64,000 nucleotides of DNA, taken from contig NZ_FOFF01000005.1 of NCBI RefSeq assembly GCF_900110755.1, positions 186,001 to 250,000 of the forward strand, given 5' to 3'. This DNA is from Streptomyces sp. yr375. Lineage in GTDB: Bacteria; Actinomycetota; Actinomycetes; Streptomycetales; Streptomycetaceae. Of the stretch, positions 952 to 35,736 are shown piece after piece. Both the position numbers and the translations under genes were made by a program. Within the stretch, counting starts at the first letter, position 1; every line of letters starts with the position of its first letter. A model generated the notes under the pieces. That model was given only the letters and a program-made list of their open reading frames with translations. It ran no database searches and had not been told where the DNA came from.

Positions 952-978
952 GTTGACGGCGCGACCCTAGCAATGAAA

Positions 979-994: not shown

Positions 995-1017
995 GTTTTG
1001 GTGTTAGGGTGCCGCCC

Positions 1018-10524: not shown

Positions 10525-10702
10525 TATGTCGGTCCCTTATCCCGCCCTCACTCCCGGGGGTGCCGTTCGGAGTGTTCACACCGTGTGTACTGCCCGGATG
10601 GCCCATCGAAGTGGTGTTCCAAGCGGTGTTGACGAGGTGGCCGAGGGAGTAGCATCCGCGGCATCGGTTCTGTCCGTACGACGCTGATGTCACGGAGGAA
10701 GC

Positions 10703-21340: not shown

Positions 21341-21375
21341 AGTTCGACGAAAAGCAGAAAGAAAGGGTGCGTGTC

Positions 21376-22575
21376 GTGACCACCGCCCAGACCACGGAGC
21401 TCGACGTACAGCCGTCTCCGCTCGCCCTGTTGCTGCTCGGCCGGGACGCCGACCCGAAGAGCGAGCGGGGTGTCGAGTGTCCCGGCGACCTGCCCTCCCC
21501 GTCCGACCCGGACCTGGTGGAGCGGGCGCGCGCGGCCAAGGAGAAGCTCGGAGACAAGGTCTTCGTGCTCGGCCACCACTACCAGCGCGACGAGGTCATC
21601 CAGTTCGCCGACGTCACGGGCGACTCCTTCAAGCTGGCGCGGGACGCGGCGGCCCGCCCGGAGGCCGAGTACATCGTCTTCTGCGGTGTGCACTTCATGG
21701 CCGAGTCCGCCGACATCCTGACGTCGGACGACCAGAAGGTGGTCCTCCCCGACCTCGCCGCCGGCTGCTCGATGGCCGACATGGCGACGGCCGAGCAGGT
21801 CGCCGAGTGCTGGGACGTGCTGACCGAGGCCGGCATAGCCGAGCAGGTCGTGCCCGTCTCGTACATGAACTCGTCCGCCGACATCAAGGCGTTCACGGGG
21901 AAGCACGGCGGCACGATCTGCACCTCGTCGAACGCCCAGCGGGCGCTGGAGTGGGCCTTCGAGCAGGGGGACGGCCCCGCGGCGACGAAGGTGCTGTTCC
22001 TGCCCGACCAGCACCTCGGCCGCAACACCGCCGTCCGCGACCTGGGGATGTCCCTGGAGGACTGCGTCCTGTACAACCCGCACAAGCCGAACGGCGGGCT
22101 GACCGTCGAGCAGTTGCGGGACGCGAAGATGATCCTGTGGCGGGGCCACTGCTCGGTGCACGGCCGCTTCAGCCTGGAGTCGGTGGCGGACGTACGCGCC
22201 CGGATCCCCGGTGTCAACGTGCTCGTGCACCCCGAGTGCCGGCACGAGGTCGTGGCGGCGGCGGACTACGTCGGCTCGACCGAGTACATCATCAAGGCGC
22301 TGGAGGCGGCCCCGGCCGGCTCGAAGTGGGCCATCGGGACGGAGCTGAATCTCGTACGACGGCTCGCGAACCGTTTCGCGTCCGAGGGCAAGGAGATCGT
22401 CTTCCTCGACAAGACGGTCTGCTTCTGCTCGACCATGAACCGCATCGACCTCCCCCACCTGGTCTGGACCCTGGAGTCGCTGGCGGCGGGCAAGCTGGTC
22501 AACCGGATCCAGGTCGACGAGGAGACCGAGAAGTTCGCGAAGCTGGCGCTGGAGCGGATGCTGGCGCTGCCGTAG
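21376..22575 (+). CDS. nadA: Quinolinate synthase A
   Basis: 399 residues from the GTG at 21376, chosen because AAAGG lies 9 bases upstream; an in-frame GTG three codons earlier is too close to it. It condenses iminoaspartate with dihydroxyacetone phosphate to quinolinate for NAD. Conserved features include GHHYQRDEV, the SAD motif, and the [4Fe-4S] ligands around FCGVHFM, VHPEC and VCFCSTMNR. Length and motifs are typical of the longer actinobacterial type. No nadB or nadC follows directly. The last codons plus stop are duplicated as a 19-bp repeat. Confidence 0.95.
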   Translation: MTTAQTTELDVQPSPLALLLLGRDADPKSERGVECPGDLPSPSDPDLVERARAAKEKLGDKVFVLGHHYQRDEVIQFADVTGDSFKLARDAAARPEAEYIVFCGVHFMAESADILTSDDQKVVLPDLAAGCSMADMATAEQVAECWDVLTEAGIAEQVVPVSYMNSSADIKAFTGKHGGTICTSSNAQRALEWAFEQGDGPAATKVLFLPDQHLGRNTAVRDLGMSLEDCVLYNPHKPNGGLTVEQLRDAKMILWRGHCSVHGRFSLESVADVRARIPGVNVLVHPECRHEVVAAADYVGSTEYIIKALEAAPAGSKWAIGTELNLVRRLANRFASEGKEIVFLDKTVCFCSTMNRIDLPHLVWTLESLAAGKLVNRIQVDEETEKFAKLALERMLALP

Positions 22576-22642: not shown

Positions 22643-23431
22643 TCAGCCGGGGTGTGCGCAGAACGGTGCGGTGATGCTCAGTCCGCCGTCGACGACGAGG
22701 TTCTGGCCGGTGATGTACGCGGCGGCGGGCGACAGCAGGAAGTCCACCGCGTCGGCGATCTCCTGCGGGGATCCCGGGCGGCCCTGCGGGATGTGGGACA
22801 CGACGTCCGCGTGGGTGAGGCCCGTGGCCCGCAGATAGTGCTCCAGCGAGTCGGTCGTGACCATCCCTCCGGTCACCGTGTTCACGTTGATCCCGCGCGG
22901 CGCCAGCTCGGCCGCGAAGTAGCGGACCCACGACTCCAGGGCCGCCTTCTGCGCCCCGATGGCCGCGTATCCGGGGACGGCCCGGCCCGCGGCGAGCGAG
23001 GAGACGGCCACGATCCTGCCTCCGTTTCCCATGAGCCGGACCGCGTGCTGGGCGGCCAGTACGAAGGACTGCGAGTTCATGGCGTGGCTGCGCGCGAGAT
23101 GCCGCAGTTCGACCTGCTCGACGCTCTTGGCGGGGCCCGCGGCGGCGTTGGCGACCAGGTGGTCGAGGTGCCCGTGCCGGCGGCGCACCGTCTCGAACAG
23201 CTCCGCGAGCTCGTCGGGGTCCTCCACGTCGGCACGGCAGAGGCTGCCCCGGCCGCCGGCCGCCTCGACCTCGGCCAGCGTCTTCGCCGCCGCCTCCGCG
23301 TCCTGCTTGTAGTTGATCACCACCTGGCAGCCGCGCCGGGCGAGGGTGAGCGCCACGGCGCGCCCGATGCCCCGGGAGGAGCCGGTGACCAGGCCGACCT
23401 CGTCGCGGCCTGCGTGCTCCCGCCCGGTCAT
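22643..23431 (-). CDS. FabL-type (ENR III) enoyl-[ACP/CoA] reductase, SDR family
   Basis: 262 residues. N-terminal cofactor motif TGSSRGIG (16-23) and NAAAG near residue 95. The active site has Tyr155 and Lys162 as Y-x6-K (YAAIGAQK), the spacing of enoyl-ACP reductases, instead of the usual SDR Y-x3-K. Segments such as VNTVTGGMVTTDSLEHYL and FLLSPAAAYITGQNLVVDGG resemble Bacillus FabL as I remember it. It should reduce an enoyl thioester with NAD(P)H. The start overlaps the ketosynthase stop (ATGA), so the two are coupled. Streptomyces primary metabolism normally uses other enoyl reductases, so this is probably cluster-dedicated. Confidence 0.82.
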   Translation of the reverse strand: MTGREHAGRDEVGLVTGSSRGIGRAVALTLARRGCQVVINYKQDAEAAAKTLAEVEAAGGRGSLCRADVEDPDELAELFETVRRRHGHLDHLVANAAAGPAKSVEQVELRHLARSHAMNSQSFVLAAQHAVRLMGNGGRIVAVSSLAAGRAVPGYAAIGAQKAALESWVRYFAAELAPRGINVNTVTGGMVTTDSLEHYLRATGLTHADVVSHIPQGRPGSPQEIADAVDFLLSPAAAYITGQNLVVDGGLSITAPFCAHPG

Positions 23432-24462
23432 CCGCGCCGTCCCGGCTCGCCGCCGAAGTCCTCCGGGCCGCACCAGCGCACCACTGTCCCGCCGTAGCTC
23501 ATGCCGGAGCCGAAGGAGACCACGAGGACGTCGTCGCCCGGATTCAGCCGGCCGTGGTCCACGGCGTCGGCCAGGGCCAGGACCACGCTGGAGCCGCTGG
23601 TGTTGCCCAGCCGGTCGGCCACCACGACGGTCTTCGTCTCCGGCTGGCCCAGCTCCGCCATCAGCCGGCGCAGCAGCGTGGGATTGGCCTGGTGGGAGAC
23701 GATCAGGTCGACCTCGTCCAGGGTGGTCCCGGCCGCCTTGACGACCTGTTCGGCGAAGTCGGGGATGACGTCGAGGGCGAAGTCCCGCACGCCGCCGCCG
23801 TCCATCCGCATGTAGTTGGGGCCGCTGAAGCGGTTGGGGAAGCCGCCCGGCGGATCGAGGCGCTCGGTGAAGGCCGTGTAGTACAGCTCGGGCCGGGTGC
23901 GCATCAGGGTGGGGCCGATGCCGCGCCCGGGGCGGCAGGCCTCCAGCAGGTAGCAGGCGGCGCCGTCGCCGAAGATGGCGTGGGCCGTGCGGTCCTCTGG
24001 GTCCAGGCACTGGGCGACGGTGTCGGCGATGACGACCGCGACCCGGTGGTACTCCCCGGAGCGGATGTACTTGACGCCGACGTCCAGCGCGAAGACGCCG
24101 CCCGCGCAGCCGCCGGCGTTGACGTCGAAACCGCGGATGTCCAGCAGGTTCGCCTTGCGCAGGACGGCCGCGGCCATCGCGGGCAGCATGTGGTCCGGCG
24201 TTCCGGTGCAGCAGATCACCAGGTCGAGGGAGTCGGGGGCGACGCCGGCGCGGGCGCAGGCGTCGTACAGGGCGCCGACGGCGAGATCCGAGGTCGACTG
24301 GTCGGGTGCGGCCACCCGGCGCGTGTGAATTCCCAGTTTTCTGCGAATCCATTCGTCGGTCGTGTCGAAACGCTCGACGAGTTGTTCGTTGCTTATTTCC
24401 GTATCGGGCACGAAACGCCCTACCGACCGGATCCCGACAGACTCCGGAGCCGAATCAATCAT
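23428..24462 (-). CDS. 3-oxoacyl-ACP synthase III (FabH-like ketosynthase)
   Basis: 344 residues from MIDSAPESVG; a GTG four codons upstream (24474) is also possible. The thiolase fold has an intact Cys-His-Asn triad: Cys119 (NAGGCAGG), His257 (SHQANPTLL) and Asn287 (RLGNTSGS). FabH-type enzymes condense a starter acyl-CoA with malonyl-ACP; cluster relatives of the CerJ type instead transfer acyl groups to hydroxyls. Coupled to the FabL-type reductase and divergent from an HSD10-like dehydrogenase, which favours building or modifying a short acyl chain. No cognate ACP, malonyl transferase or dehydratase is nearby. Confidence 0.88.
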   Translation of the reverse strand: MIDSAPESVGIRSVGRFVPDTEISNEQLVERFDTTDEWIRRKLGIHTRRVAAPDQSTSDLAVGALYDACARAGVAPDSLDLVICCTGTPDHMLPAMAAAVLRKANLLDIRGFDVNAGGCAGGVFALDVGVKYIRSGEYHRVAVVIADTVAQCLDPEDRTAHAIFGDGAACYLLEACRPGRGIGPTLMRTRPELYYTAFTERLDPPGGFPNRFSGPNYMRMDGGGVRDFALDVIPDFAEQVVKAAGTTLDEVDLIVSHQANPTLLRRLMAELGQPETKTVVVADRLGNTSGSSVVLALADAVDHGRLNPGDDVLVVSFGSGMSYGGTVVRWCGPEDFGGEPGRRG

Positions 24463-24515
24463 GGCTCGCCACACTCCCTCACCGCTCCGTGCGACAAAAA
24501 ATTACGAGACATCAC

Positions 24516-24544
24516 TTGCTGCGGATTGTGCATTCCAGCAGAAT
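24516..24544 (+). promoter_or_regulatory. Candidate promoter of the HSD10-like gene
   Basis: TTGCTG (24516-24521) and CAGAAT (24539-24544) are separated by exactly 17 bases, 46 bases before the start codon. The divergent region 24463-24589 is noticeably AT-rich for this genome and also holds the promoter of the ketosynthase-reductase pair. Confidence 0.5.
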
Positions 24545-24589
24545 CAAGCTTCGGTTGTATTCTTTTCCGCTGTCTTCGAAAGGGTCCTC

Positions 24590-25357
24590 ATGTCTCGGCA
24601 CCAGAACCGTCCCGTGGCACTCGTCACCGGGGGCACCTCGGGGCTCGGTCTCACGACCGCCGAACGGCTCCTCGCGGACGGTATGCGGCCGGTGCTGTTC
24701 GGGCGGTCCCGTGAGCGGGGCAAGTCGGCCGTGCGGCAGTTGGGGGGCGAGGCCGTCTTCGTGGCCGGTGACGTCGCCGTGGAGGGCGATGTGGAGCGGG
24801 CCGTGGCGGTCGCGGCCGAGCGCGGGGAGCTGCGGGCCGTGGTGAACTGCGCCGGGCGGGCGCACGCGGCGCGGGTCGTGGGCCGGTCGGGGCCGCACTC
24901 CCTGAAGGAGTTCGCCGAGGTGGTGACGGCGAATCTCACGGGCACCTTCAACGTCGTACGGCTGGGCGCCGAGTCGATGGCGCGCAACGAGCCGGTGGCC
25001 GGGGAGCGGGGAGTCGTGGTCAACACGGCCTCCATCGCCGCCTTCGACGGTCAGATCGGCCAGGCCGCGTACGCCGCCTCCAAGGCCGGTGTCGCCGGTA
25101 TGACGCTGCCGCTCGCGCGGGAGCTGGCCGGCCTGCTGATCCGGGTGGTGACCGTGGCGCCGGGGCTGTTCGACACCCCGGCCGCCGAGGTGCTGCCGCC
25201 CGCCAAGCGGGCCGCGTTGGCCGGTCTGGTCCCGCATCCGCGCAGGTGGGGGCAGGCGCACGAGTTCGCGCACCTGGTGGCCCACGTGATCGGCAACCCG
25301 ATGCTCAACGGCGAGACCATCCGGCTGGACGGCGGGCTGCGGCTGCCTGCCTCGTGA
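24590..25357 (+). CDS. HSD10-like type II 3-hydroxyacyl-CoA dehydrogenase (SDR)
   Basis: 255 residues from the ATG at 24590, which has AAAGGG upstream. Cofactor motif TGGTSGLG (13-20), NCAG, catalytic Ser148 and Y161-x3-K165. The flanking text (NLTGTFNVVRL, NTASIAAFDGQIGQAAYAASK, VAPGLFDTPA, NGETIRLDGG) closely follows the 17-beta-HSD10 / type II 3-hydroxyacyl-CoA dehydrogenase family. It interconverts 3-hydroxyacyl- and 3-ketoacyl-thioesters; family members also oxidise steroid-like alcohols, so a terpenoid alcohol is an alternative substrate. Divergent from the ketosynthase-reductase pair. Confidence 0.85.
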   Translation: MSRHQNRPVALVTGGTSGLGLTTAERLLADGMRPVLFGRSRERGKSAVRQLGGEAVFVAGDVAVEGDVERAVAVAAERGELRAVVNCAGRAHAARVVGRSGPHSLKEFAEVVTANLTGTFNVVRLGAESMARNEPVAGERGVVVNTASIAAFDGQIGQAAYAASKAGVAGMTLPLARELAGLLIRVVTVAPGLFDTPAAEVLPPAKRAALAGLVPHPRRWGQAHEFAHLVAHVIGNPMLNGETIRLDGGLRLPAS

Positions 25358-25363
25358 GCCCGG

Positions 25364-25394
25364 CCGGGGCCCCGGGCGGCGCCCGGGGCCGGAT
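25364..25394. terminator. Terminator between convergent dehydrogenase and P450 genes
   Basis: GGCCCCGGGC (25368-25377) and GCCCGGGGCC (25381-25390) form a perfect 10-bp stem with a GGC loop, with further flanking pairing. It fills the 41-base gap between two convergent stop codons. Confidence 0.7.
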
Positions 25395-25398
25395 CCGG

Positions 25399-26604
25399 CT
25401 ACCAAGTCACCGGGAGCTCCCGGCACCCGTAGACGATGGCCCCCTCGCGCATCGCCACCTCCTCGGCGGGCACCGCGAGGCGCAGTTCCGGCAGCCGGTC
25501 GAACAGCACCTGGAAGCCGATGCGCATCTCGGCCCGGGCCAGTTGCTGGGCCACGCACTGGTGCACGCCGAAGCCGAAGGCCAGGTTGCCCGAGGGCACG
25601 CGGGTGATGTCGAACCGGTCCGGGTCCGCGAACCGCTCGGGGTCGCGGTTGGCGGCGGGCAGCGACACGGTGACGGTCTGCCCGGCCCGTACGGTCGCCC
25701 CGCCCAGCTCCACGTCCGCGGCGGCGCCCCGCGAGATGCCGAACTGGATGACGGTGAGATAGCGCAGCATTTCCTCGACGGCGCCGCTCGTCATGTCCGG
25801 GGACTCGCGCAACGCGGCGAGCTGCTCCGGGTGGGTCAGCAGGGTGTAGGTGCCCAGGGAGAACATGTTCGCGGTGGTCTCGTGGCCCGCCGTGAAAAGC
25901 TGGAAGGCGACGCTCGTCAATTCGACATCGCTGAGTTCGGCGGAATGCGCGAGGCCGCTCAGCAGGTCGTCGGCGGGTGCTTTCCGCTTCAGTTCGACGA
26001 CGCCTCCGAGGAATTCGAAGATGATGCGGTAGCACTCTTTGACCTCTTCGGCGGTCGAGTCGATGCGCAGCATCTTCTCGGAGACCGGCTGGATCTCCCG
26101 CCAGTCCTCGTACTCGATTCCCAGGAGGTCGCAGATGACCCGGGACGGCAGCGGGATGGCGAAGGCGGTGACGAGGTCCGCGCCGGTCGCGCCGTCGGCC
26201 CGCATCCGGTCGACCAGTTCGTGCGCGACCGCCGCGATCTTGGGTTCCATCTCGCGCATCCGGCGGGTGCTCAGCTCGCCGGTGAGCAGCCTGCGGTAGG
26301 TGGTGTGCTCCGGCGGGTCCATGCCCACGAACATGCCGGGCACGTCCTCCTCGGGCGGCTGTCCGTCGCCCAGGACGTCGTGCACCGCCGAGTGCCGCAG
26401 CCGCGGGTCGGAGCTGAAGCGCGGGTCGGACAGCACCTGCCGGGCGTACTCCTGGTTCGTCACGATCCAGCCCTCGTGCCCGTCCGCGTAGGTGAGCGGG
26501 GCCACCGGGCAGCGCGCCCGCCACTCGGCCAGCTCCGGCGGCGGGTCCAGGGGGTGGGCGCGGTCGACGGGGATCCTGGGAGGCGTGGTCTCTCGCTGGG
26601 TCAT
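25399..26604 (-). CDS. Cytochrome P450 (soluble bacterial class I)
   Basis: 401 residues. I-helix AGHETT (239-244), ExxR motif EMLR (278-281), and heme loop FGFGVHQCVAQQLAR with the thiolate Cys350. The residue two after Cys is Ala instead of the usual Gly. It is a single-domain bacterial enzyme needing a ferredoxin such as the one at 28945. The start overlaps the acyltransferase stop by four bases (ATGA), so the two are translated together and may act one after the other on one scaffold. Substrate unknown; probably a terpenoid or acyl-terpenoid hydroxylation. Confidence 0.93.
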   Translation of the reverse strand: MTQRETTPPRIPVDRAHPLDPPPELAEWRARCPVAPLTYADGHEGWIVTNQEYARQVLSDPRFSSDPRLRHSAVHDVLGDGQPPEEDVPGMFVGMDPPEHTTYRRLLTGELSTRRMREMEPKIAAVAHELVDRMRADGATGADLVTAFAIPLPSRVICDLLGIEYEDWREIQPVSEKMLRIDSTAEEVKECYRIIFEFLGGVVELKRKAPADDLLSGLAHSAELSDVELTSVAFQLFTAGHETTANMFSLGTYTLLTHPEQLAALRESPDMTSGAVEEMLRYLTVIQFGISRGAAADVELGGATVRAGQTVTVSLPAANRDPERFADPDRFDITRVPSGNLAFGFGVHQCVAQQLARAEMRIGFQVLFDRLPELRLAVPAEEVAMREGAIVYGCRELPVTW

Positions 26605-27842
26605 GCGTGCTCCTGGTTCGCGTTGCGGGCGCTGAGCAGCTCTGCGGCGCGCCGTTTCAGGGCCTCGCGCTCCGGGCCTGAGAGCAGGTCGTGGGGCGAG
26701 GTGAGCTCGACGCTGAGCCTGCCGTCGTAGGAGGTGACGACGAACAGCAGCAGTCCGGGCATGGTGGTCGTGGTGTAGCCGCGGAAGTCCGTGACGCGCA
26801 GTCCGTCCGGTGTGGTGAACGGGGGGATGGGGCCCAGGTTCGTCACGACGAGGTCGACCGAGACCGGGGTGGCGGCCGTGAACTGGCCGGCCTGGAGGAT
26901 CGCGTGTTCGGCCTCGCCGCTGTCGATGGCCTTGTCCAGCCGCTCCTTGACGACCCGGCCGATCTCCATCGGGTCGGCGTGCCGGGGGACGGCGACGGAC
27001 GCCTCGACGCCGCTGACGAAGTTGGTGGACTCCTCGACCGTCACCGGTGGTTCGACCCGGTTGCGCAGATCCACCGGGCAGCCGCACACCATGTCGAGTG
27101 CGCCGCCTTGCGGCCGGCCCTCGCGCAGGGCGACCGTCGCGACGCCGGCCACGAAGCCGTGCACGGAGAAGCCCTCCGCGCGCAGCGACTCGATCAGCCC
27201 GGCCGTGTGCCGCTGGTCGAGCCGGACGCGTTCGGGTACGACGGTGAGGTGGGCCGGGGACGGGGCCGCGGCGAGCGCGGCGCGCAGGGCCGCCCGGTCC
27301 ACGGCGGGCTCGGCCCCGCGCGCCGCGCCGCGCTCCTTCAGCAGCGTCTCGGCGGACGCCTGGGGCACGGCCGGGGGCGTGGCGTACGGGGGCTGTTCGC
27401 CCCTGCTGAGCGCGGTGTAGTTGCGGCACAGCTTCTCCAGCAGGGTGACGCCGCCGCGGCCGTCGATCATGCTGTGGTGCAGTACCAGGATGAGGTGGCC
27501 GCGCCGGTCGCCGCGTACCAGGACGAGCCGGCACAGCTCCCGGGTGGAGTCCAGGGGGCTGCCCATTTCCTCCAGGTAGACGGCTTCCTGATGCTGGGCG
27601 GTGCCGTCCGTGTCGCGGACGCGGATCTCCGGCCGGCGTCCCGGGGGGATCCGGAAGAAGAAGCCGTGCTCGTCGCGTCCGAGGCTCCCGCTCAGCAACG
27701 GGACGGCGTCACAGAGTGCCTCGAATGCCCCGACGAGTAAATCCGAATCAATCGATCCGGCCACTTCGATCGAATAGGAGCCGGACCAGTCGACAAAGGC
27801 GTGATATGCCTCGCTGGGGTCCAGATGGCGCTGCCACGGCAT
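26601..27842 (-). CDS. Condensation-domain-like acyltransferase (PapA family fold)
   Basis: 413 residues with the HHxxxDG catalytic motif HHSMIDG (122-128). The C-terminal half contains the AATPVSVDLVVTNLGPIPPF region typical of PapA/alcohol acyltransferase-like stand-alone condensation proteins. It most likely esterifies a hydroxyl on the oxidised terpene with a CoA- or ACP-bound acyl group. Coupled to the downstream P450. A palindrome-like site at 27879-27890, also found upstream of the cluster LuxR gene, lies 37 bases before its start. It parallels the acyltransferase at 1725. Confidence 0.85.
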   Translation of the reverse strand: MPWQRHLDPSEAYHAFVDWSGSYSIEVAGSIDSDLLVGAFEALCDAVPLLSGSLGRDEHGFFFRIPPGRRPEIRVRDTDGTAQHQEAVYLEEMGSPLDSTRELCRLVLVRGDRRGHLILVLHHSMIDGRGGVTLLEKLCRNYTALSRGEQPPYATPPAVPQASAETLLKERGAARGAEPAVDRAALRAALAAAPSPAHLTVVPERVRLDQRHTAGLIESLRAEGFSVHGFVAGVATVALREGRPQGGALDMVCGCPVDLRNRVEPPVTVEESTNFVSGVEASVAVPRHADPMEIGRVVKERLDKAIDSGEAEHAILQAGQFTAATPVSVDLVVTNLGPIPPFTTPDGLRVTDFRGYTTTTMPGLLLFVVTSYDGRLSVELTSPHDLLSGPEREALKRRAAELLSARNANQEHA

Positions 27843-27878
27843 GAAAGACTCTTCCCGGTCGAGCTGAAAAAGAAATCC

Positions 27879-27890
27879 GGAACAGATTCC
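27879..27890. promoter_or_regulatory. Candidate LuxR-box, acyltransferase promoter
   Basis: GGAACAGATTCC resembles the perfect palindrome GGAATCGATTCC upstream of the LuxR gene (28809), differing at three inner positions. It lies in the 217-base gap upstream of the acyltransferase-P450 pair. A shared operator for the cluster regulator is inference. Confidence 0.4.
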
Positions 27891-28059
27891 AGTATTCCCG
27901 GGAGCCGTCAGGACTGTCTTCCGCCCAAGAGCCAGGCACGGAAACCGGACTCCCGACCGGCCGGCCGACTCCGGCCCGGGCGAACGACCGGGGAAAAAGC
28001 CCGCCCGACCTGGCAGAAGGGCCGGGGTGGTCGTGGGTGGCGTGGTCGCCGAGGCGTGG

Positions 28060-28800
28060 TCAGGCGCTGAAGCGGTGCAGGGCGGCGCGCTGCGCCGGGG
28101 TACCGAAGGGCCCCACGGCGGCGATGAGCTGGGTGCGGGTGCTCACCCCGGACTTGGCCAGCACGTTCGAGACATGGAATTTGACCGTCTTCTCGCTGAC
28201 CGAGAGCGCCGCTGCGATGGCCTTGTTCGACAGGCCCTGGCAGAGCAGGCCCAGCACGCCGTTCTCCCGGTCGGTGAGCCGGTCCTTGAAGCGGTGGTCG
28301 ACACCGGGGCGGGCGACGCCGGCCCGCACGGCCTGGAGCAGACACCCCGTCAGCTCCTGCGAGGCGAACCCGTCTCCGGAGGTCACCGCACGCACCGCGC
28401 GGACCAGTTCGTCATGGCGCGCATCACGGTGGACGATCGCCCGCACATTACCTCTGACCAGGGCGGCGAGCTTCTCCGGCGCCATGCACTCGATGCCGTA
28501 GACCAGCCCGTACGGGGGCGCCGGGGCCGACTTGGCGAGGTCCTGGATCGTCTCGGCAAGGCCGGCTTCCAGCAGGACGACGTCGGCCCGGCACTCGGCG
28601 ATCCGCCGCAGCGCCTCCCGCTCGTCCGCCGCCTCCGCGACCACGGAGATTCCGGGGTCCCTGGAGAGGATCGTCTTCAAGCCGAAGCGGGCGTGTGGAT
28701 TCTCATCACAAATAATGACATCGATCGCATCTTCTTTGATCGAGAGTAGCAACGAACCCCCTATGTCGCACCCGAGTACGCAGACGTCACGCGGGAACAT
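28060..28800 (-). CDS. Orphan LuxR/NarL-type regulator with atypical receiver
   Basis: 246 residues. The N-terminal receiver-like domain starts IDVIICDENPHARFGLKTIL, but the expected phospho-aspartate is Glu78 in DVVLLEAG, so classic phosphorylation is unlikely. The C-terminal LuxR helix-turn-helix (LTDRENGVLGLLCQGLSNKA ... SVSEKTVKFHVSNVLAKSGV) is intact. No kinase is adjacent. The first 30 codons are AT-rich compared with the neighbours, hinting at recent transfer. ATG at 28800 lacks a good ribosome site; an in-frame TTG behind GGGGGT, 16 codons in, is an alternative. It is probably the pathway-specific activator. Confidence 0.85.
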   Translation of the reverse strand: MFPRDVCVLGCDIGGSLLLSIKEDAIDVIICDENPHARFGLKTILSRDPGISVVAEAADEREALRRIAECRADVVLLEAGLAETIQDLAKSAPAPPYGLVYGIECMAPEKLAALVRGNVRAIVHRDARHDELVRAVRAVTSGDGFASQELTGCLLQAVRAGVARPGVDHRFKDRLTDRENGVLGLLCQGLSNKAIAAALSVSEKTVKFHVSNVLAKSGVSTRTQLIAAVGPFGTPAQRAALHRFSA

Positions 28801-28808
28801 AGGAATTC

Positions 28809-28820
28809 GGAATCGATTCC
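28809..28820. promoter_or_regulatory. Candidate LuxR-box, regulator's own promoter
   Basis: GGAATCGATTCC is a perfect 12-bp palindrome starting nine bases upstream of the LuxR ATG. A close relative occurs at 27879. Its overlap with the likely transcription start suggests autoregulation. Confidence 0.45.
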
Positions 28821-28944
28821 ACAGACGGCCCCCGCCGCGCCCCGAAATCTAGATCAGGCTAATCGAACACGGGCGCGCGGCACAAGGGTTCAGCCAATCA
28901 CAAGGGGGCTCGCGGCCATCTCTTACCCGGCCCATGAGGCTTTT

Positions 28945-29172
28945 TCAACCCAGACCGTTCAATTTCGCGTCAGAATTCTCCATCCTGATGGCGGTGCAGG
29001 GACAGTTCTCCACGGCGGTTCTGACCGTCGATTCCTGGCCAGGTGGCGGAAATTGCGTCAGGAGGACGACGGTTCCGTCGTCGTCCCGCTGGTCGAACAC
29101 ACCGGGCGCGCTCAGGGCGCACATGCCCGAGCCGCAGCAGCGGTCGTAGTCGATGACGATGCGACCGGTCAC
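28945..29172 (-). CDS. [3Fe-4S] ferredoxin, P450 redox partner
   Basis: 75 residues from a GTG at 29172. Cysteines C12-x5-C18 (CCGSGMC) and C57-P (NCPC) give the three-cysteine pattern of Streptomyces SoyB/SuaB-type [3Fe-4S] ferredoxins that feed P450s. Its GTG start overlaps the stop of the preceding P450 (GTGA), so stoichiometric production is likely. It is the last gene of the operon starting at 35427 and the only ferredoxin in the cluster. No ferredoxin reductase is present, so a housekeeping one must be used. Confidence 0.92.
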   Translation of the reverse strand: MTGRIVIDYDRCCGSGMCALSAPGVFDQRDDDGTVVLLTQFPPPGQESTVRTAVENCPCTAIRMENSDAKLNGLG

Positions 29173-30563
29173 GGACAAGATGCGGCCCCCTCGCCCGGGA
29201 CGTCTTCACCCGGGGCGTCCTCGGCGAGGACGGGCTCGGCACGCATCGGCATGTGGTTCGGGTTGACCGTCGCCCAGGGCATCTCCCGGACCGTGACCCC
29301 GTCGGGCAGCGTCAGCCGCCAGCGGCGGACGACCGTGCCGAGCACCACGTGCATCATCGCCCAGGCGAACTGCTCCCCGATGCAGTGCCGCGGGCCCGCC
29401 CCGAACGGGGTGTACGCGCCCTTGGGCAGGCTCGCGGCCGGCCGCTCCAGCCAGCGGTCCGGGTCGAAGCGCAGCGGGTCGGGGAAGAACTCGGGGTCCC
29501 GGTGCACCGCGTAGGGGCTGTAGAACAGCTCGGTGCCGGCCTTCACGGAGCCGGTGCCCAGCGGGAAGTCGCGGACGGCGCGCCGGGAGATGACGAGGAT
29601 CGGCTGCCGGACCCGCATGACCTCCTGGAGCACCCGGCGGCTGTACGGCAGGTTCCCCACGTCGGCCATGGTGAAGTCCCGCTCCCCCACCACCTCTTGG
29701 ACCTCCTCGCGCACCCGGCGTTCGATCTCCGGATGACGGGCGAGTTCGTAGAACAGCCAGGCCATCGCCGTGGCCGCGGTCTCGGAGCCGGCCATGGTGA
29801 CCGAGACGATCTGGTTGCACAGCTCCTCGTCGGTCATGCCGAGGCCCGTCTCCTCGTCGCGGGCCTCCAGGAGCATGGCGAGCATGCCGGCCCGGCCGGG
29901 TTCCGCGGCTCCCTGGCGGTAGGCCAGCATGACGCGGCTGATCGTGTCGCGGAGCTGGGCGAAGGCGCGGTCGAAGCGGCGGTTCATGGGCAGCGGCAGC
30001 TTCTCCATCAGGTCGCCCGGCGAGACCGTGCGCCACATGATGGCCTCCAGGACCGTGGGCAGGATCCCGGCGAGTTCCTCGTGGGCGTCCCGTCCGACCA
30101 CCGAGCCGAACATGGTGCGGGCCAGGATGTTGAAGGTGATGTCCCGCATCGCCCGGTCCACGGGGATCTCCGCCCCGGCCCGCCAGCCCGCCGACTTCTC
30201 CTCGGTGACCTCCCGCATGACCTCGACGTAGCGGGTGATCTCGTCCCGGTGGAAGGACGGCTTGATCATGGCCTGCTGACGGCGGTGCTCGTCGCCGTAG
30301 GCGTGGATCACCCCGTTGCCGGTGAGCGGCCGCACCTTGTCGTAGAACCGCCCCTTGTCCAGGAGGTCCTTGCGGTCGGTGAGCAGGGTGTGGATCAGCG
30401 GCGGCGACGTCACGAACAGCGACGGCATCGGGCCCAGGTCGACCCGGACCAGGTCGCCGTGGTCGCGCAGCGAGGTGAGGAAGCGCAGCGGGCTGCGCAT
30501 CAGCGCCGCGGCGTGGCCGACGCCGGGCAGCCGCCCGGGGGCGGTCGCGTACGAGGTGTTCAC
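29169..30563 (-). CDS. Cytochrome P450 (CYP4/CYP102-like sequence type)
   Basis: 464 residues from a GTG at 30563 that overlaps the terpene cyclase stop. I-helix AGSETA (258-263), K-helix EVMR (314-317), PERF-like DPDRW, and heme loop FGAGPRHCIGEQFAW with Cys394. The RxCIG heme loop and the N-terminal LPGVGHAAALMRSPL segment resemble the terpene-oxidising P450s (CYP183/PtlI-like) seen in streptomycete sesquiterpene clusters. It probably performs an oxidation of the cyclised hydrocarbon. The C-terminus ends in an acidic EDAPGEDVPGEG tail. Confidence 0.93.
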   Translation of the reverse strand: MNTSYATAPGRLPGVGHAAALMRSPLRFLTSLRDHGDLVRVDLGPMPSLFVTSPPLIHTLLTDRKDLLDKGRFYDKVRPLTGNGVIHAYGDEHRRQQAMIKPSFHRDEITRYVEVMREVTEEKSAGWRAGAEIPVDRAMRDITFNILARTMFGSVVGRDAHEELAGILPTVLEAIMWRTVSPGDLMEKLPLPMNRRFDRAFAQLRDTISRVMLAYRQGAAEPGRAGMLAMLLEARDEETGLGMTDEELCNQIVSVTMAGSETAATAMAWLFYELARHPEIERRVREEVQEVVGERDFTMADVGNLPYSRRVLQEVMRVRQPILVISRRAVRDFPLGTGSVKAGTELFYSPYAVHRDPEFFPDPLRFDPDRWLERPAASLPKGAYTPFGAGPRHCIGEQFAWAMMHVVLGTVVRRWRLTLPDGVTVREMPWATVNPNHMPMRAEPVLAEDAPGEDVPGEGAASCP

Positions 30564-31666
30564 CCACGCACCTCCGTACGCGCCGCCGTCCACGCCGGGG
30601 GCAGCGTGCAGTAGGCGTCGTCGCTGAACACCGTGCGCTCGCGGTGCAGGGTCAGCACCCCGGAGCGGGCCCCGCTCCAGGTGTGCCCGGGGCCGTTGTA
30701 GCGGGACGTGAGGTACGACCACTGGAGGTTGCCGGCCATCATGTGCCAGAGGGCGTCCAGGTAGGCGCGGATGTCCTCGCGCCCGCCCAGTTCGCCCGCC
30801 TCGATGGCCGCGCGGGCCGCCATGAACTCGGCCCGCTTGCCGTCGATGAACGCGAACAGCCGGTCCACGGCGGCCTGGAGACCGAGTCCCTCGCGCAGGT
30901 GCAGCACCGAGAGGGCGTTGACGTAGTCGTCCATCATCGCCTCGGCGCGGAACGAGAACAGGTCGTTGGTCAGCATGATGTGCACGAGGGCCGTGTCGAC
31001 GATGTCGCGCAGCTCCGGGTGGCGCCGGAGGTCCTCGGTGAGGTCGATGCCGAGGCCGTACTCGCCGAGCACGAAGTACATGCCCATGCCCACGCTGTCC
31101 TTGCGGACCTCGAGGTACGTGTCGTAGTCGAAGACCCGGTCCTCGGTGCGGGAGGTGATCTCGCGGACGCAGCCGCCGAGGAAGCGGCGGACCTCGCCCA
31201 TGAACCGGTCCCAGACGGCCGGCGGCATCCCCGCCCGCATCTCCTTCCACAGCCCCTGGAGGACGGAGCCCCAGGCGAAGTCGGCGCCGTCCGCGCGGTC
31301 GTCGAGGATGTTCGCCACCCGGCCGAACATCTCGCGCGCCGCGTCGGGATCGCTGCCGATCTTGGTGCGGTCCACCATGGCGTTGTCGAAGACCGAGAGG
31401 TACTCGGTGTACTTGCACAGGTGGCGCAGCCGGTCCTCGCGGGCCGTCGGCAGCACCAGGCAGGTCCACAGGGACGCGGTCTCCTCCAGGAGGAGTTCCA
31501 TCTCGCGCGGGTCGGCCATCGCGAAGCCCATGGTCTCGCGCACCCAGGCGTCCGACTCCCGGCGGATGTCCTCGGTCCTCGGGTGGCTGCAGGCGGGCAG
31601 CAGGTAGGGGAATTCCGGAAGGTATATCTGCATGCCGTCCGAGAACGGCTTCGGGATCGTCGACAT
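30560..31666 (-). CDS. Class I terpene cyclase
   Basis: 368 residues from the ATG at 31666, which has AGGTGAG seven bases upstream; a GTG at 31678 overlapping the previous stop is an alternative. All-alpha terpene synthase fold. The Asp-rich motif is non-canonical, FDNAMVD (D94, N95, D99). The NSE triad is complete (N234, S238, E242 in NDLFSFRAE). The pyrophosphate sensor R188 is 46 residues before N234 and the C-terminal R322-Y323 pair is present, both as in active bacterial cyclases. It probably cyclises the diphosphate made by the adjacent prenyl synthase. The product cannot be predicted. Confidence 0.9.
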   Translation of the reverse strand: MSTIPKPFSDGMQIYLPEFPYLLPACSHPRTEDIRRESDAWVRETMGFAMADPREMELLLEETASLWTCLVLPTAREDRLRHLCKYTEYLSVFDNAMVDRTKIGSDPDAAREMFGRVANILDDRADGADFAWGSVLQGLWKEMRAGMPPAVWDRFMGEVRRFLGGCVREITSRTEDRVFDYDTYLEVRKDSVGMGMYFVLGEYGLGIDLTEDLRRHPELRDIVDTALVHIMLTNDLFSFRAEAMMDDYVNALSVLHLREGLGLQAAVDRLFAFIDGKRAEFMAARAAIEAGELGGREDIRAYLDALWHMMAGNLQWSYLTSRYNGPGHTWSGARSGVLTLHRERTVFSDDAYCTLPPAWTAARTEVRG

Positions 31667-31674
31667 CGGGTAAC

Positions 31675-32760
31675 TCACCTTTCGCGATGGACGGCGGCGG
31701 CCGCCAGCGACTCCAGCTCGGCCAGCGCGGACCGTTCGACGCCGGCCTCGCGCAGCGCCCGGACGGCGTCGGTGTGCCGGTCCTCGATCATCCGCTCGAT
31801 GGCTTCGGGGGCTCCGGTGGCCGTGACCACGTCCCGCAGTGCGCCCATGTCGTCGGCGCGGAACTCCGGCGCGCCGTAGAGCAGGTCCAGGCGGGCGCTC
31901 TGGCGCGGGTCGGCCAGTTCGCGGGCCAGCGCGATGAGCGCCGTGGGCTTTCCCTGGCGGACGTCGTCCGTGCCGTCCTTGCCGGTGACCTCCGGGGCGC
32001 CGAAGAGGCCGATGAGGTCGTCGCGGAGCTGGAACGCCTCGCCGAGGAGCAGTCCGAAGGTGTCGTACGCCTTCATCAGCGTGTCGTCCGCGCCCGCGAG
32101 CGCGCCGCCGATCTGCAGGGGGTAACGGACCGTGTAGCTCGCCGTCTTGTGCCGGATGATCTTCAGCGCGTCGTTGAGCCGGCCGCCGCGCGCCTCGCCG
32201 ACGAGGTCGAGGAACTCCCCGTACACCGCGGACGTGCGCAGCCGGGCGAACAGCCGGCGAGCCCGGTCGTCGCGCGCGACCAGCGGGTTGGCGTGGAACA
32301 GCTCCTCCGACCAGACCAGGCAGGCGTTCCCGGCGAGCAGCGCGCCGCTCTGGCCGAAGGCTCCGCTCTCGCCCCGCCAGCCGTGGCCGGCGTGCCAGGT
32401 GCCGAGCGCCCGGTGGATCGTGGGCCGGCCGCGCCGTACGTCGCTGTTGTCGATGATGTCGTCGTGGATGAGGGCCGCGGTGTGGAACAGCTCCAGCGCG
32501 GCGGCCACGGCGACGACGTCGGCACAGGCATCGGTGTCGGCGTAGGCGTCCGGGTCGGCCGCGCCGCGCCAGCCCCAGTAGCAGAACAGCGGGCGGATCC
32601 GTTTGCCGCCGTTCAGCGTGAAGGTGCGGAGCGTCTCCAGGACGTCCCGGGTCTCCGGGTGGGTCTCCCGGGTCGTCCGCTCCCGGAGGAAGTCGTCGAG
32701 GAGACCGTTGACCCGCGCCGCGACCGCCGAGCTCTCCGTGAACTCGTCGATGAGCGTCAC
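31675..32760 (-). CDS. Polyprenyl (probably geranylgeranyl) diphosphate synthase
   Basis: 361 residues, GTG start overlapping the P450 stop. First Asp-rich motif DDIID (100-104), second DDLIG (247-251, last Asp replaced by Gly, as in many streptomycete GGPP synthases), GGKRIRP substrate loop at 51-57. The residues five and four before the first motif are Ala95 and Ala96; absence of aromatic gatekeepers there argues for C20 or longer rather than C15. Its location directly before the cyclase makes it the dedicated precursor supplier. Chain length needs biochemical proof. Confidence 0.9.
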   Translation of the reverse strand: MTLIDEFTESSAVAARVNGLLDDFLRERTTRETHPETRDVLETLRTFTLNGGKRIRPLFCYWGWRGAADPDAYADTDACADVVAVAAALELFHTAALIHDDIIDNSDVRRGRPTIHRALGTWHAGHGWRGESGAFGQSGALLAGNACLVWSEELFHANPLVARDDRARRLFARLRTSAVYGEFLDLVGEARGGRLNDALKIIRHKTASYTVRYPLQIGGALAGADDTLMKAYDTFGLLLGEAFQLRDDLIGLFGAPEVTGKDGTDDVRQGKPTALIALARELADPRQSARLDLLYGAPEFRADDMGALRDVVTATGAPEAIERMIEDRHTDAVRALREAGVERSALAELESLAAAAVHRER

Positions 32761-34115
32761 TTGCCGCGCCTGACGACCTTCATGGACAGCTCCCCCGGGA
32801 CCAGGGCGCCCATCGCGATCGGCTTGACCGGCTCACCGGTGATGGGCTGCACGGACCAGTTCTGGAACAGGGTCGCGAGCACGGTCTGCGTCTCGAACCA
32901 GGAGAAGGACTCGCCGATGCAGTTGCGCACGCCCGCGCCGAACGGCATGAACGCGCTGCGCGGAACCTGCTTGGCCCGCTCGGGCAGCCAGCGGTCGGGG
33001 TCGAACGCCTCGGGGTTGTCGTAGACCTTGGGGTCGTGGTGGACGGCGTAGATGGAGTACAGCACCTCGGAGCCGGCCGGGATGCGGTGGCCGCCCAGCT
33101 CGGTGTCCGTCACGCACTTGCGGCCGAGCGCCCACACCGGCGGATACAGCCGCAGGGCCTCCTGGATGACCCGCCGGGTGTAGTCCAGCGCGCGCAGGTC
33201 GGTGGCCTGGACGGGGCGGTCGCCGACCACCTCGTCGACCTCCTCCTGGAGCCGGCGCTGCACCTCGGGGTGGCGGCCGAGCAGCATGCAGCTCCAGCTC
33301 ATGGCGCTCGGCGTGGTCTCGGAACCCGCCGTCAGGAGCGTCATGAACTCGTCCTGGATCTGCTTGTCCGTCATCGACTTGTTGCCCTCGTCACGCGCGG
33401 TGAAGAGGAGGTTCATCAGGTCGTCGGGGCGCTCGCCGCCGGGGCCCTTGGCACGGTAGTCGGCGATGATGCGCCGGCCCATCGAGTACAGCCGGCCGAC
33501 GGCGCTGTGGAACTCGCGGCTGGAGCGGCTGGGAATGCGGTCCAGGAGCGCGGGCGGGATCGCCGCCCGCTTCTCGACCCCGGAGATCACGATGGGCATG
33601 GACCGGAAGACCTCGGCCACGTCCTGCTCGACCATGTCGGTGGAGAACAGCGCCTTGATGACGACGCGCACGGCGAGCTCGTAGAACATGCTGTACATGC
33701 CGACGCGTTGACCGTCGCGCCAGGTGTCGAAGACCTCGGTCGCCGACTCCCGCATGACGTCGACGTAGCTGCCGATCTTCTCGTGGTGGAAGGCGGGCTG
33801 CATCAGCAGCCGCTGCCTGCGGTGGAAGTCGCCCTCGGACAGCAGGATGCCGTTGCCGAGCAGCGGGCGCGCCTGGTCGAACTGCATGCCCTTCTCGAAG
33901 GACTTGGCCTTGCGCACGAGGATGTCGTAGAGCATGTCGTGGTCGCTGACCACGTACGCCGGCTTGGTGCCGAGCCAGATCCGCACCAGACCGCCCTGCT
34001 CGCTCGCGGTCTGGAAGAACTTGAGGGGGTTACGGAACATCTGCACGGCGTGGCCCGCGAGCGGAACGCGTCCCGGCATGGGCGGGACGTTCGGTGCGGC
34101 AGTCGCCAAAGCCAT
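32757..34115 (-). CDS. Cytochrome P450 (PtlI/CYP183-like sequence type)
   Basis: 452 residues. N-terminal VPLAGHAVQMFRNPLKFFQT, I-helix AGSETT (263-268), ExxR motif EALR (319-322) and heme loop FGAGVRNCIGESFSW with Cys399. This layout is typical of terpene-hydrocarbon oxidising P450s of Streptomyces. It precedes the prenyl synthase with a four-base GTGA overlap, so it is an integral part of the operon. It may catalyse multi-step allylic oxidation of the cyclised product. It resembles the P450 at 29169 more than those at 25399 or 34192. Confidence 0.93.
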   Translation of the reverse strand: MALATAAPNVPPMPGRVPLAGHAVQMFRNPLKFFQTASEQGGLVRIWLGTKPAYVVSDHDMLYDILVRKAKSFEKGMQFDQARPLLGNGILLSEGDFHRRQRLLMQPAFHHEKIGSYVDVMRESATEVFDTWRDGQRVGMYSMFYELAVRVVIKALFSTDMVEQDVAEVFRSMPIVISGVEKRAAIPPALLDRIPSRSSREFHSAVGRLYSMGRRIIADYRAKGPGGERPDDLMNLLFTARDEGNKSMTDKQIQDEFMTLLTAGSETTPSAMSWSCMLLGRHPEVQRRLQEEVDEVVGDRPVQATDLRALDYTRRVIQEALRLYPPVWALGRKCVTDTELGGHRIPAGSEVLYSIYAVHHDPKVYDNPEAFDPDRWLPERAKQVPRSAFMPFGAGVRNCIGESFSWFETQTVLATLFQNWSVQPITGEPVKPIAMGALVPGELSMKVVRRGK

Positions 34116-34191
34116 GATCTTTTCCTCCGTGGAGTGGCTTGCTGCGAGGGGGGAGGCAGATGGAGAAGGGGAAAGGGGCGTCGGCGGGCGG

Positions 34192-35427
34192 TCAGGAGCA
34201 GGTGACCGGCAGTCCGGCCAGGCCCCGGAAGACGAAGCCGCCGGGCAGGTACTGCGGGGTGAAACCGTCGGCGAGCCGCAGTCCCGGCAGGGCGTCCGCG
34301 AGGGTCTCCAGGGCGATACGGGACTCCAGGCGGGCGAGCGCGGCCCCCACGCAGAAGTGGATGCCGAGGCCGAAGCCGAGGTGGCGCGGCGGGCCCTGCC
34401 GGTCGAGCCGGAACGTCTCGGGGTCGTCGACCTCCCCCGGATCGCGGCCCGCCGCCGCGAACATCACCCGCAGCCGGGCGCCCTCGGGCACCTCGGTGTC
34501 GCCGACGCGCAGCGCCCGGGTCGCGACGCGCGGCGCGCCCTGCACGGAGGAGTCGAAGCGCAGGGTCTCCTCGACCGCCGGGCCGATCAGCTCCCGGTCC
34601 TTGACGACGGCCTCCCACCGGGCGCGGTCCAGGAGCAGTTGGTGGACGGCGTTGGAGATCAGGTTGCTGGTGGTCTCGTGCCCCGCCGCGATCATCACCC
34701 GGAGGGCGACGACGGCGTCCTCGACGGTGCACACCGGGTCCGCGGCCTCGGACGCCCGCACCAGCTCGGTGAGCAGGTCGTCGGCGGGCTCCCGGCGCCG
34801 CTGCTCCAGCAGGTCGAGTACGTACTTCTCGTACGTGACGACGTTGGTGGCGCAGTGCACCTGCTGCTCGGGCGGCAGCGGGACGACCTGGAGGGCGAGC
34901 CACTCGTTGTTCCAGCCCTTGACCATCGCCCGGTCCGCCTCCGGGATGCCGATGATGTCGCAGATCACCGTCATCGGCAGCGGGTAGGCGAACTCCTGGA
35001 GCAGGTCGCCGCCGCCCTTGGCCGCGAGGTCGGCGACGAGCCGGCGGGCGATCTCCCGGATCGCGCCCTCGCGGCGGCGCAGCGCGCGGGGCGAGAAGTA
35101 CTCGCTGATGAGGGTGCGGAAGCGGGTGTGGGCCGGCGGCTCCACGTTGTAGAGGGCGACCCGGAAGAACAGCGAGCCGTCCAGGATCTCCTTCGCCTCG
35201 GGGCAGAAGGGATAGGAACCGTCGAGGTTGTAGCGGCTCGTGAAGTGCTCGTGGTCGCGCTGCACGGCCTCGATCTCGGCGCGGCCGGTGACGATCCACT
35301 CGTCCAGCGCGCTCTGGTGGGCCACCGGATGCTGCTCACGGGCGCGGGCGAACGCCGCGTACGGGCACGCACGGTAGGCCTCGGATCCGGGATCGAAGAG
35401 TTCTGCCACGGACGTGTCGGACGACAT
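34192..35427 (-). CDS. Cytochrome P450, first gene of the terpenoid operon
   Basis: 411 residues. I-helix AGHETT (248-253), ExxR motif ETLR (287-290) and heme loop GFGLGIHFCVGAALARLE with Cys359, the classical soluble actinobacterial P450 type. Start ATG at 35427; AGGAGG lies 12 bases upstream, a little far. It leads the 35427-28945 minus-strand operon. A 76-base gap separates it from the next P450, the only real gap in the operon apart from overlaps. A late-stage hydroxylation or epoxidation is plausible; the substrate is unknown. Confidence 0.93.
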   Translation of the reverse strand: MSSDTSVAELFDPGSEAYRACPYAAFARAREQHPVAHQSALDEWIVTGRAEIEAVQRDHEHFTSRYNLDGSYPFCPEAKEILDGSLFFRVALYNVEPPAHTRFRTLISEYFSPRALRRREGAIREIARRLVADLAAKGGGDLLQEFAYPLPMTVICDIIGIPEADRAMVKGWNNEWLALQVVPLPPEQQVHCATNVVTYEKYVLDLLEQRRREPADDLLTELVRASEAADPVCTVEDAVVALRVMIAAGHETTSNLISNAVHQLLLDRARWEAVVKDRELIGPAVEETLRFDSSVQGAPRVATRALRVGDTEVPEGARLRVMFAAAGRDPGEVDDPETFRLDRQGPPRHLGFGLGIHFCVGAALARLESRIALETLADALPGLRLADGFTPQYLPGGFVFRGLAGLPVTCS

Positions 35428-35736
35428 CGGTGCGCTGGCCTCCTAACGACGGGGCGGTCCCCGGCCACCGGGAGGGCGGTCGATCCGAACCCGCATGATC
35501 TGCACGTCAGCATCGTCGACGCGATCATCGGATGTCTTCGGCCGAGAGGCCAGGATCCACCGACCCGGCGGAAGGCGGGGCCGGCCCCCACACTGGTCTC
35601 CGGACCAGGCAACGGCAGGGGGGACGGCGGGGGGCGGGAGGCCGGTTCGTCGGCTGGGCACAGGGGCGTTGTGCGTCGTGGTGGTGAGCGGCGCTCGGGG
35701 GCGGCGGGCGGGGGCTTCGCCGGTCTCGCCGGGTGC
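35428..35736. other. Right border of the terpenoid cluster, 309 bp without a gene
   Basis: Holds the promoter region of the terpenoid operon (reading left) and the 3' flank of the response regulator. I see the AGGAGG site of the first P450 and a CGTCGACG palindrome near 35515, but no convincing -10/-35 pair, no tRNA, no attachment-site repeat and no transposon end. Short open frames here lack coding signs. Confidence 0.5.

Follow-up and report, generated by a model that had tools for sequence, protein, structure and literature searches.

The closest described relatives of the gene cluster analyzed here are the bnd cluster of Streptomyces sp. CL12-4, whose product is benditerpenoic acid with minimum inhibitory concentrations of 100–401 µM against Gram-positive bacteria (passages of PMC10221052 and PMC10301674), and the aridacin (ari) cluster of Amycolatopsis arida. 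In the available parts of the respective reports, the terpene synthase Bnd4 from S. iakyrus, which is 92% identical to the CL12-4 enzyme, is described to make benditerpe-2,6,15-triene (PMC12015392) and the same triene is ascribed to AriT from A. arida CGMCC 4.5579 (PMC10055836). Excerpts of a review refer to the cyclase as AriE and assign to the cytochrome P450 AriF the abstraction of a hydrogen from the C-20 methyl group, which triggers transannular closure (PMC12927490), and excerpts of PMC11250809 place Bnd3 in the system supplying geranylgeranyl diphosphate (GGPP) and name the residues F162 and Y197 of Bnd4. Here we compare these systems to a cluster of 12 genes found at positions 22643–35427 of a 64,000-nucleotide stretch of DNA from Streptomyces sp. 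yr375 (NZ_FOFF01000005.1, positions 186,001–250,000), the whole of which is referred to as the window. The cluster is terpenoid and located between nadA and the genes of a two-component system. It encodes a prenyl synthase, a class I terpene cyclase, four P450s (P450a–d), a ferredoxin, a LuxR-type regulator and, as its less understood part, a conserved acyl module consisting of a PapA-type acyltransferase, a FabH-like β-ketoacyl synthase III (KSIII) and two short-chain dehydrogenases/reductases (SDRs), the FabL-like enoyl reductase SDR1 and the FabG-like SDR2. We consider it likely that this is a benditerpenoid-type cluster, where a cis-eunicellane provided by a Bnd4-type cyclase would be oxidized by the four P450s and esterified by PapA with an acyl chain that is probably built by the KSIII, ketoreductase and enoyl reductase of the same cluster.

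With 88% identity to the S. iakyrus enzyme, a characterized benditerpe-2,6,15-triene synthase, the window cyclase is strongly predicted to yield a cis-eunicellane diterpene. Scanning of GTDB r220 genomes identified seven loci, which belong to S. flaveolus, SID5910 (L010), S. iakyrus (L011), S. gossypii, NK08204, A. arida CGMCC 4.5579 (L013) and A. taiwanensis, with L009–L012 and L015 constituting the five other Streptomyces loci. Identity to the A. arida protein P0008 amounts to 72%, and the best match among solved structures is PDB 9lpb (580 bits), with VenA being far behind (185 bits). The aligned part of chain A of 9lpb differs from P0008 at one residue, as read by eye. Class I terpene synthases bind metal ions by an acidic motif and an NDxxSxxxE motif. 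In the window cyclase these are found as D98-N-x-x-V-D103 and N238, D239, S242 and E246, which are identical in the seven relatives compared, and in a numbering starting from MSTIPK the protein carries F162 and Y197, as does Bnd4. The genomes of S. iakyrus and A. arida each contain a single member of the cyclase family; since L013 is the source strain of AriT and holds only this one member, P0008 is very likely AriT/AriE, and the stop in the L013 match fits the natural end of the gene (9932–11071). In the methods section of PMC12015392, the primer pair printed as ‘VenA’ is an exact match to the S. iakyrus gene (L011 10001–11095) at both of its ends and the printed Bnd4 forward primer is found in neither of the two genomes searched (S. 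iakyrus and A. arida), for which reason the Bnd4 and VenA labels appear to be swapped.

The remaining genes of the core show a similar correspondence. When 14 P450s were placed in a FastTree tree, the window proteins each paired with one P450 of A. arida (with a support of at least 0.98 for each clade), and A. taiwanensis contains partners of three of them and none of P450c. From the order of genes, we infer that AriF is probably the P450 following the A. arida cyclase, which is the partner of window P450c (64%), the other candidate being the P450 preceding this cyclase, which is the partner of P450b (69%). In the gene order of the window, the prenyl synthase is third and the cyclase fourth, in agreement with the names Bnd3 and Bnd4.

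The full set of 12 genes is found again beside nadA, with order and site unchanged, in 5/5 other Streptomyces loci and, in four comparisons of the window to a relative, the ratio of non-synonymous to synonymous substitution rates (dN/dS) of 11 cluster genes, with the ferredoxin left out, ranges from 0.13 to 0.48, which together indicate that the cluster is not a chance grouping. With the best four or five first-look candidates scored per listed genome, the cyclase is found in two of 392 sampled Streptomyces species, its own and SID5910, with seven more at the distance of VenA, and KSIII and PapA matches above 700 bits are confined to the same two species, the next best scoring 531 bits for KSIII, where no cyclase was found, and 168 bits for PapA. 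The second of these species (G153) is not independent of the seven-locus scan, its locus L018 being 100% identical to L010 over 4080 bases. In a separate sample of 61 relatives, the cyclase is detected at 1e-100 in one, which is its own genome. In 14/14 Streptomyces relatives, the interval is bordered by nadA and pspA and devoid of cluster genes, with 40% identity and a coverage of 40% of the query taken as lower limits. These 14 were taken from 17 same-genus relatives with a nadA match, leaving out G004, G010 and G016; matches below 40% identity were left out of the locus comparison in general, and in the interval of the relatives also those covering less than 40% of the query length. The empty interval and the low number of species with a cyclase bear out the original prediction, made from the sequence of the window, of a diterpenoid cluster in a core-gene interval, and conservation at this site in all Streptomyces, which had been named there as an observation that would speak against it, was looked at and is rejected by the counts of 2/392 and 1/61.

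In 12 of the 14 cluster-free relatives, the interval contains a gene of an AcrB-type resistance-nodulation-division (RND) protein, which is 74–94% identical to the S. iakyrus copy (with Pfam applied to L011 and to three of these twelve relatives). This gene is kept beside the cluster in L009–L011, and it has no match in the window (site 35428–35736), in L012 or in L015, and at 1e-50 none in the whole own genome. As simplest reading, the cluster would have been placed between nadA and the RND gene, with the latter being lost later in some lines. The synonymous divergence (dS) of the 11 cluster genes in the same four comparisons ranges from 0.31 to 1.04, with the LuxR gene showing the highest value, compared to 0.31–0.49 for nadA, which fits a long residence of the cluster at this site. 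Since the dS of the cluster is about equal to or higher than that of the flanking nadA, a recent jump between species was rejected.

Within the acyl module, KSIII scores 275 bits against the NCBIfam model of beta-ketoacyl-ACP synthase 3 (NF006829, cut-off 249; ACP: acyl carrier protein). Its C123-H261-N291 triad is present in 6/6 Streptomyces loci, the window included, and the same applies to Y155/K162 of SDR1 (Y-x6-K), to the catalytic S150, Y163 and K167 of SDR2 (numbered from 24584) and to the HHxxxDG motif of PapA, which is HHxxxDA in A. arida. The best PDB matches of KSIII are 3-oxoacyl-ACP synthases III (179.5 bits), with ChlB3 scoring far lower (55.8 bits), and it is unlikely to be a housekeeping copy because the six other KSIII-like places in its own genome are all at most 38% identical. 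For SDR1, B. subtilis FabL (3oic, 174 bits) leads the next PDB chain (133 bits) by 41 bits. In the protein database, five of 55 cyclase matches, all among the first nine, agree in the size of their longest contig with one of 18 PapA matches, suggesting that in these cases cyclase and PapA genes reside on one contig. Pairs of KSIII and SDR2 are also found in other surroundings. In L081 (8079–14861) such a pair (66% and 69% identical to the window proteins) is located beside a zinc dehydrogenase and a non-ribosomal peptide synthetase of condensation-adenylation-carrier-thioesterase organization, which suggests that an acyl-building unit of this type serves another pathway there, and in L082 (53% and 57%) the pair is next to P450, methyltransferase and polyketide synthase-type genes. 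The KSIII–SDR unit would thus build an acyl chain for an enzyme of the condensation superfamily. In A. arida, the gene of an AMP-binding enzyme, a predicted acyl-CoA ligase, overlaps the PapA gene and provides a possible alternative source of the acyl donor.

KSIII and the SDRs are tied to the terpene pathway by synteny and co-occurrence only, whereas PapA is tied to it by a promoter element. An alignment of upstream regions revealed the 22-bp box CCTGGYYCTYNGGCNGAAGACA before P450a and before PapA. At up to two mismatches there are exactly two copies in the genome of 9,070,480 bases, both in this cluster, and the five further matches at three mismatches correspond to chance level (a reversed-pattern control gave eight at up to three). 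It is this restriction to the terpene operon and the PapA–P450 operon that links PapA to the terpene genes. At up to four mismatches, the box is present at both promoters in 6/6 Streptomyces loci, and it was not found in the two Amycolatopsis loci. As 286,916 background bases contain five matches at up to four mismatches, the four-mismatch box in L012 is weak by itself. In 5/6 loci, a palindrome of the type CCTGGTC-N4-GACCAGG is located 54–58 bp upstream of the box (start to start) at both promoters, with L012 departing from this arrangement (no palindrome was detected ahead of P450a and the spacing at PapA is 24 bp). On its own the palindrome is unspecific, with 78 matches at up to three mismatches on both strands of the same background. 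The box ends with AAGACA and is followed after 17–18 nt by AATACT (PapA) or GATNNT (P450a), which plausibly constitute a –35/–10 pair. The regulator reading the element is probably the LuxR protein of the cluster, whose receiver domain contains a glutamate at the usual position of the phosphorylated aspartate in 5/6 loci and an aspartate in L012, which suggests a phosphorylation-independent control.

The combined features lead to the following proposal for the pathway. Based on its orthology to Bnd3, the prenyl synthase would make GGPP, and the Bnd4-type cyclase would, as its close characterized orthologues, make the 6/10 bicycle. P450b, P450c, P450a and P450d, served by the ferredoxin, would oxidize methyl or ring positions, with either P450c or P450b corresponding to AriF, the methyl-hydrogen abstractor of aridacin biosynthesis. 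As judged from their motifs, KSIII would condense a starter acyl-CoA with malonyl-ACP, SDR2 would reduce the keto group and, after the action of a housekeeping dehydratase, SDR1 would reduce the enoyl-ACP. PapA would then transfer the acyl group to a hydroxyl made by a P450. The shared promoter element, probably read by the LuxR protein, would co-regulate the steps from GGPP formation to oxidation with the PapA–P450d unit. From sequence, the product is likely an oxidized, O-acylated cis-eunicellane, and its multiple oxidation and acyl ester, both already part of the original prediction, are reasonable inferences. Only tentatively do we extend this proposal to suggest that benditerpenoic acid may not be the end of the pathway, and that Streptomyces might make the O-acylated compound via a dedicated set of KSIII, ketoreductase and FabL-like reductase feeding PapA, under the control of a cluster-specific two-part operator, with A. 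arida using an acyl-CoA ligase instead.

Several observations weigh against this proposal. KSIII scores 236 bits against the NCBIfam model of fabH (TIGR00747, cut-off 292) and is therefore called FabH-like and not FabH; SDR1, with 247 bits at a cut-off of 328 for FabL, is for the same reason called FabL-like, and SDR2 is below the FabG cut-off. The 12 cluster genes include no dehydratase and no carrier protein. The divergent KSIII/SDR2 promoter is devoid of the box, whose consensus was built from the same loci where it was counted, leaving the whole-genome count as the only independent test. In A. arida and A. taiwanensis, the KSIII and SDR genes have no match at 40% identity within 10 kb, and with the same limits PapA and P450c were not found at the A. 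taiwanensis locus. The SDRs could also oxidize or reduce the terpene itself. Benditerpenoic acid is an unacylated C20 acid. An acylated product of any bnd or ari cluster was not found in the available literature passages, and according to those of PMC10055836, S. albus expressing the complete A. arida cluster is reported to have yielded one characterized product, 5a.

Among the alternatives, we regard as somewhat unlikely that, with the cis-eunicellane core kept, KSIII and the two SDRs form a passenger operon of fatty-acid-like genes, with PapA taking its acyl group from a housekeeping acyl-CoA (e.g., acetyl-CoA). The box-free promoter of KSIII and SDR2, the missing matches in both Amycolatopsis loci and the presence of KSIII–SDR2 pairs in L081 and L082, two other Streptomyces genomes where no such cyclase was found, would speak for this arrangement. 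However, all three genes accompany the cluster in each of the six Streptomyces loci, they are absent from the site in the 14 relatives and, among the 392 species, high-scoring KSIII matches are restricted to the two that carry the cyclase. It is unlikely that the SDRs tailor the terpene, either by interconversion of alcohol and ketone or by FabL-like reduction of an enone, with KSIII acting as acyltransferase instead of a condensing enzyme. Although SDRs are commonly terpene dehydrogenases, and distant KSIII relatives such as ChlB3 are found among the PDB matches, KSIII keeps its Cys-His-Asn triad and is by far closer to 3-oxoacyl-ACP synthases III, and SDR1 is closest to FabL, an enoyl reductase acting on acyl-ACP. 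Equally unlikely, in our view, is a conversion of the bicycle into a 6/7/5 tricycle by P450c as AriF-type enzyme, which would result in an acylated aridacin-like compound and not in a eunicellane. P450c is related to the A. arida P450 located directly after the cyclase and AriF effects a transannular cyclization (excerpts of PMC12927490), but benditerpenoic acid, the reported Streptomyces compound of this cyclase type, is described as bicyclic (passages of PMC10221052) and the identity of AriF among the A. arida P450s was deduced from the order of letters. Finally, even if few substitutions can change the product of a terpene synthase and the neighboring VenA-type family makes another skeleton, it is very unlikely that the cyclase makes a different diterpene despite its high identity, as the S. 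iakyrus enzyme and P0008, the likely AriT, are about 71% identical and both reported, in the parts of the sources cited above, to make the same triene, and as both residues named in the work on Bnd4 are identical in the window cyclase.

The genes assigned to the proposed acylated cis-eunicellane pathway are listed in Table 1 together with their promoter elements and flanks. The families proposed in the original prediction hold, including the LuxR gene, the acyltransferase–P450 pair and the pair of KSIII and enoyl reductase, and its six-gene overlapping operon is nearly exact, with the last five genes of the terpene operon overlapping by 4–10 nt and P450a being separated from P450b by 76 nt. 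The presumed 3-hydroxyacyl dehydrogenase turned out to be SDR2, a FabG-like protein encoded on the plus strand, and 12 cluster genes were counted in place of 13. A defunct P450 was rejected, as the heme cysteine, I-helix and ExxR motifs are found in all four. On the right flank, the genes of the response regulator and histidine kinase are followed by PspA and DUF3043 genes. Rfam families were not found at 18000–42000 nor a tRNA in the window, and a consensus scan for promoters and terminators was uninformative (no promoter and five terminators, compared to 3.4 expected).

Table 1. Coordinates of cluster genes, promoter elements and flanking genes in the window.
Feature	Position	Strand	Remarks
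Cytochrome P450 a	34192–35427	-	First gene of terpene operon; PF00067; heme Cys359, AGHET, ExxR; 73–87% in 5 Streptomyces loci, 58% in A. arida
Cytochrome P450 b (pentalenene-oxygenase/albaflavenone-monooxygenase-like)	32757–34115	-	PF00067 3e-95; best NCBIfam models below cut-off; 87–92% in 5 Streptomyces loci, 69% in A. arida
Polyprenyl (predicted GGPP) synthase, position of Bnd3	31675–32760	-	PF00348; 60–74% in 5 Streptomyces loci
Class I terpene synthase, Bnd4/AriE orthologue	30560–31678	-	PF19086; alternative ATG start at 31666
Cytochrome P450 c	29169–30563	-	PF00067 5e-81; 64% to P450 adjoining A. arida cyclase (L013 11107–12438), probable AriF; clade support 1.0
Single-cluster ferredoxin	28945–29178	-	PF13370/PF13459; five Cys kept in 6/6 Streptomyces, window included
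LuxR/NarL-type regulator, atypical receiver domain	28060–28800	-	PF00196; PF00072 sub-threshold
PapA-type O-acyltransferase (PapA_C)	26601–27842	-	PF16911 9e-46; HHSMIDG; overlaps P450d
Cytochrome P450 d (CYP105-like)	25399–26604	-	PF00067; nearest solved structures include CYP105AS1; 74% to A. arida
SDR2, FabG-like 3-oxoacyl reductase	24590–25357	+	PF00106; S-Y-x3-K; best NCBIfam models FabG-type, below cut-off
KSIII, FabH-like beta-ketoacyl synthase	23428–24474	-	NF006829 above cut-off; C123-H261-N291; overlaps SDR1
SDR1, FabL-like enoyl-ACP reductase	22643–23431	-	Y-x6-K; best PDB match B. subtilis FabL 3oic
Shared promoter box copy 1, before P450a operon	35533–35554	-	
Inverted repeat CCTGGTC-N4-GACCAGG type, copy 1	35592–35609	.	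55 bp (start to start) before box
Shared promoter box copy 2, before PapA-P450d operon	27915–27936	-	0 mismatches to consensus
Inverted repeat copy 2	27975–27992	.	56 bp before box; 3 mismatches here (degenerate), 1 in L009–L011 and L015, 2 in L012
nadA, conserved left flank, outside cluster	21367–22575	+	PF02445; 92.5–93% in L009–L011 and L015, 87% in L012
Response regulator (35737–36420) and histidine kinase (36417–37640), conserved right flank, outside cluster	35737–37640	-	

By this comparison, an unrecognized cluster becomes a specific and testable hypothesis. There is a conserved acylation part to the known bacterial eunicellane pathway, and searches of the open-licence literature yielded no description of PapA, KSIII or SDR genes for a cluster of the bnd type. 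The shared promoter element could serve to switch the cluster on. If the proposal is true, the mature metabolite of a known antibacterial scaffold would have been missed so far, the O-acylated product would be a bacterial counterpart of the esterified eunicellanes of corals and engineering could draw on a simple bacterial route to compounds of this kind.

Among the more distant known systems, B. subtilis FabL and bacterial FabH share motifs with SDR1 and KSIII, yet latter two are part of a secondary-metabolite cluster. Similarly, the window PapA has the PapA_C domain and the HHxxxDG motif in common with mycobacterial PapA5, but it scores below the NCBIfam PapA5 cut-offs and its setting is terpenoid and not that of phthiocerol. 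The cyclooctatin (cotB) cluster resembles the window cluster in its combination of prenyl synthase, class I cyclase and P450s, whereas the cotB-type cluster of this genome employs a cyclase of another family, without a BLAST match to the window cyclase at 1e-15, and shows no match to KSIII or the SDRs. This second diterpene cluster is located about 20 kb away (window 901–3023 and G000:C39:180191–189023, L083 4192–13024) and encodes a polyprenyl synthase, a cyclase that scores 533 bits against the cyclooctat-9-en-7-ol synthase CotB2, three P450s (two recognized by Pfam and one by BLAST), a TetR protein and its own PapA_C acyltransferase. It is therefore a cyclooctatin-type cluster, possibly with an acylation step.

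A much closer relationship is found to the aridacin cluster of A. arida, which contains orthologues of the window cyclase, all four P450s, PapA (43%) and the ferredoxin (43%). In this cluster, the prenyl synthase (50%) is encoded on the other strand and there is a DXS gene and the gene of the AMP-binding enzyme beside PapA, neither of which has a tblastn match at 1e-5 in the 64-kb window, the five Streptomyces cluster loci or 16 nadA regions. Conversely, KSIII, SDR1, SDR2 and the LuxR gene have no match there (40% identity, within 10 kb), nadA has no adjoining match and the promoter box was not found. A neocarzinostatin-family protein is encoded near the A. arida cluster (L013 19292–19897). 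In case of the bnd system, the window cyclase is orthologous and in S. iakyrus the site is occupied by the same set of 12 genes; the reported bnd compound is an unacylated acid, whereas the window cluster also contains PapA, KSIII and two SDRs. The original prediction had not recognized the gene set as a described pathway, which is not supported with respect to its core: with a cyclase that is orthologous to characterized enzymes and matches Bnd4 in F162 and Y197, it is a member of the known benditerpenoid (bnd/ari) kind, and the new elements are the conserved acyl module and its connection to the terpene operon by the promoter box, the rarity and site of the cluster and the prediction of an acylated mature product.

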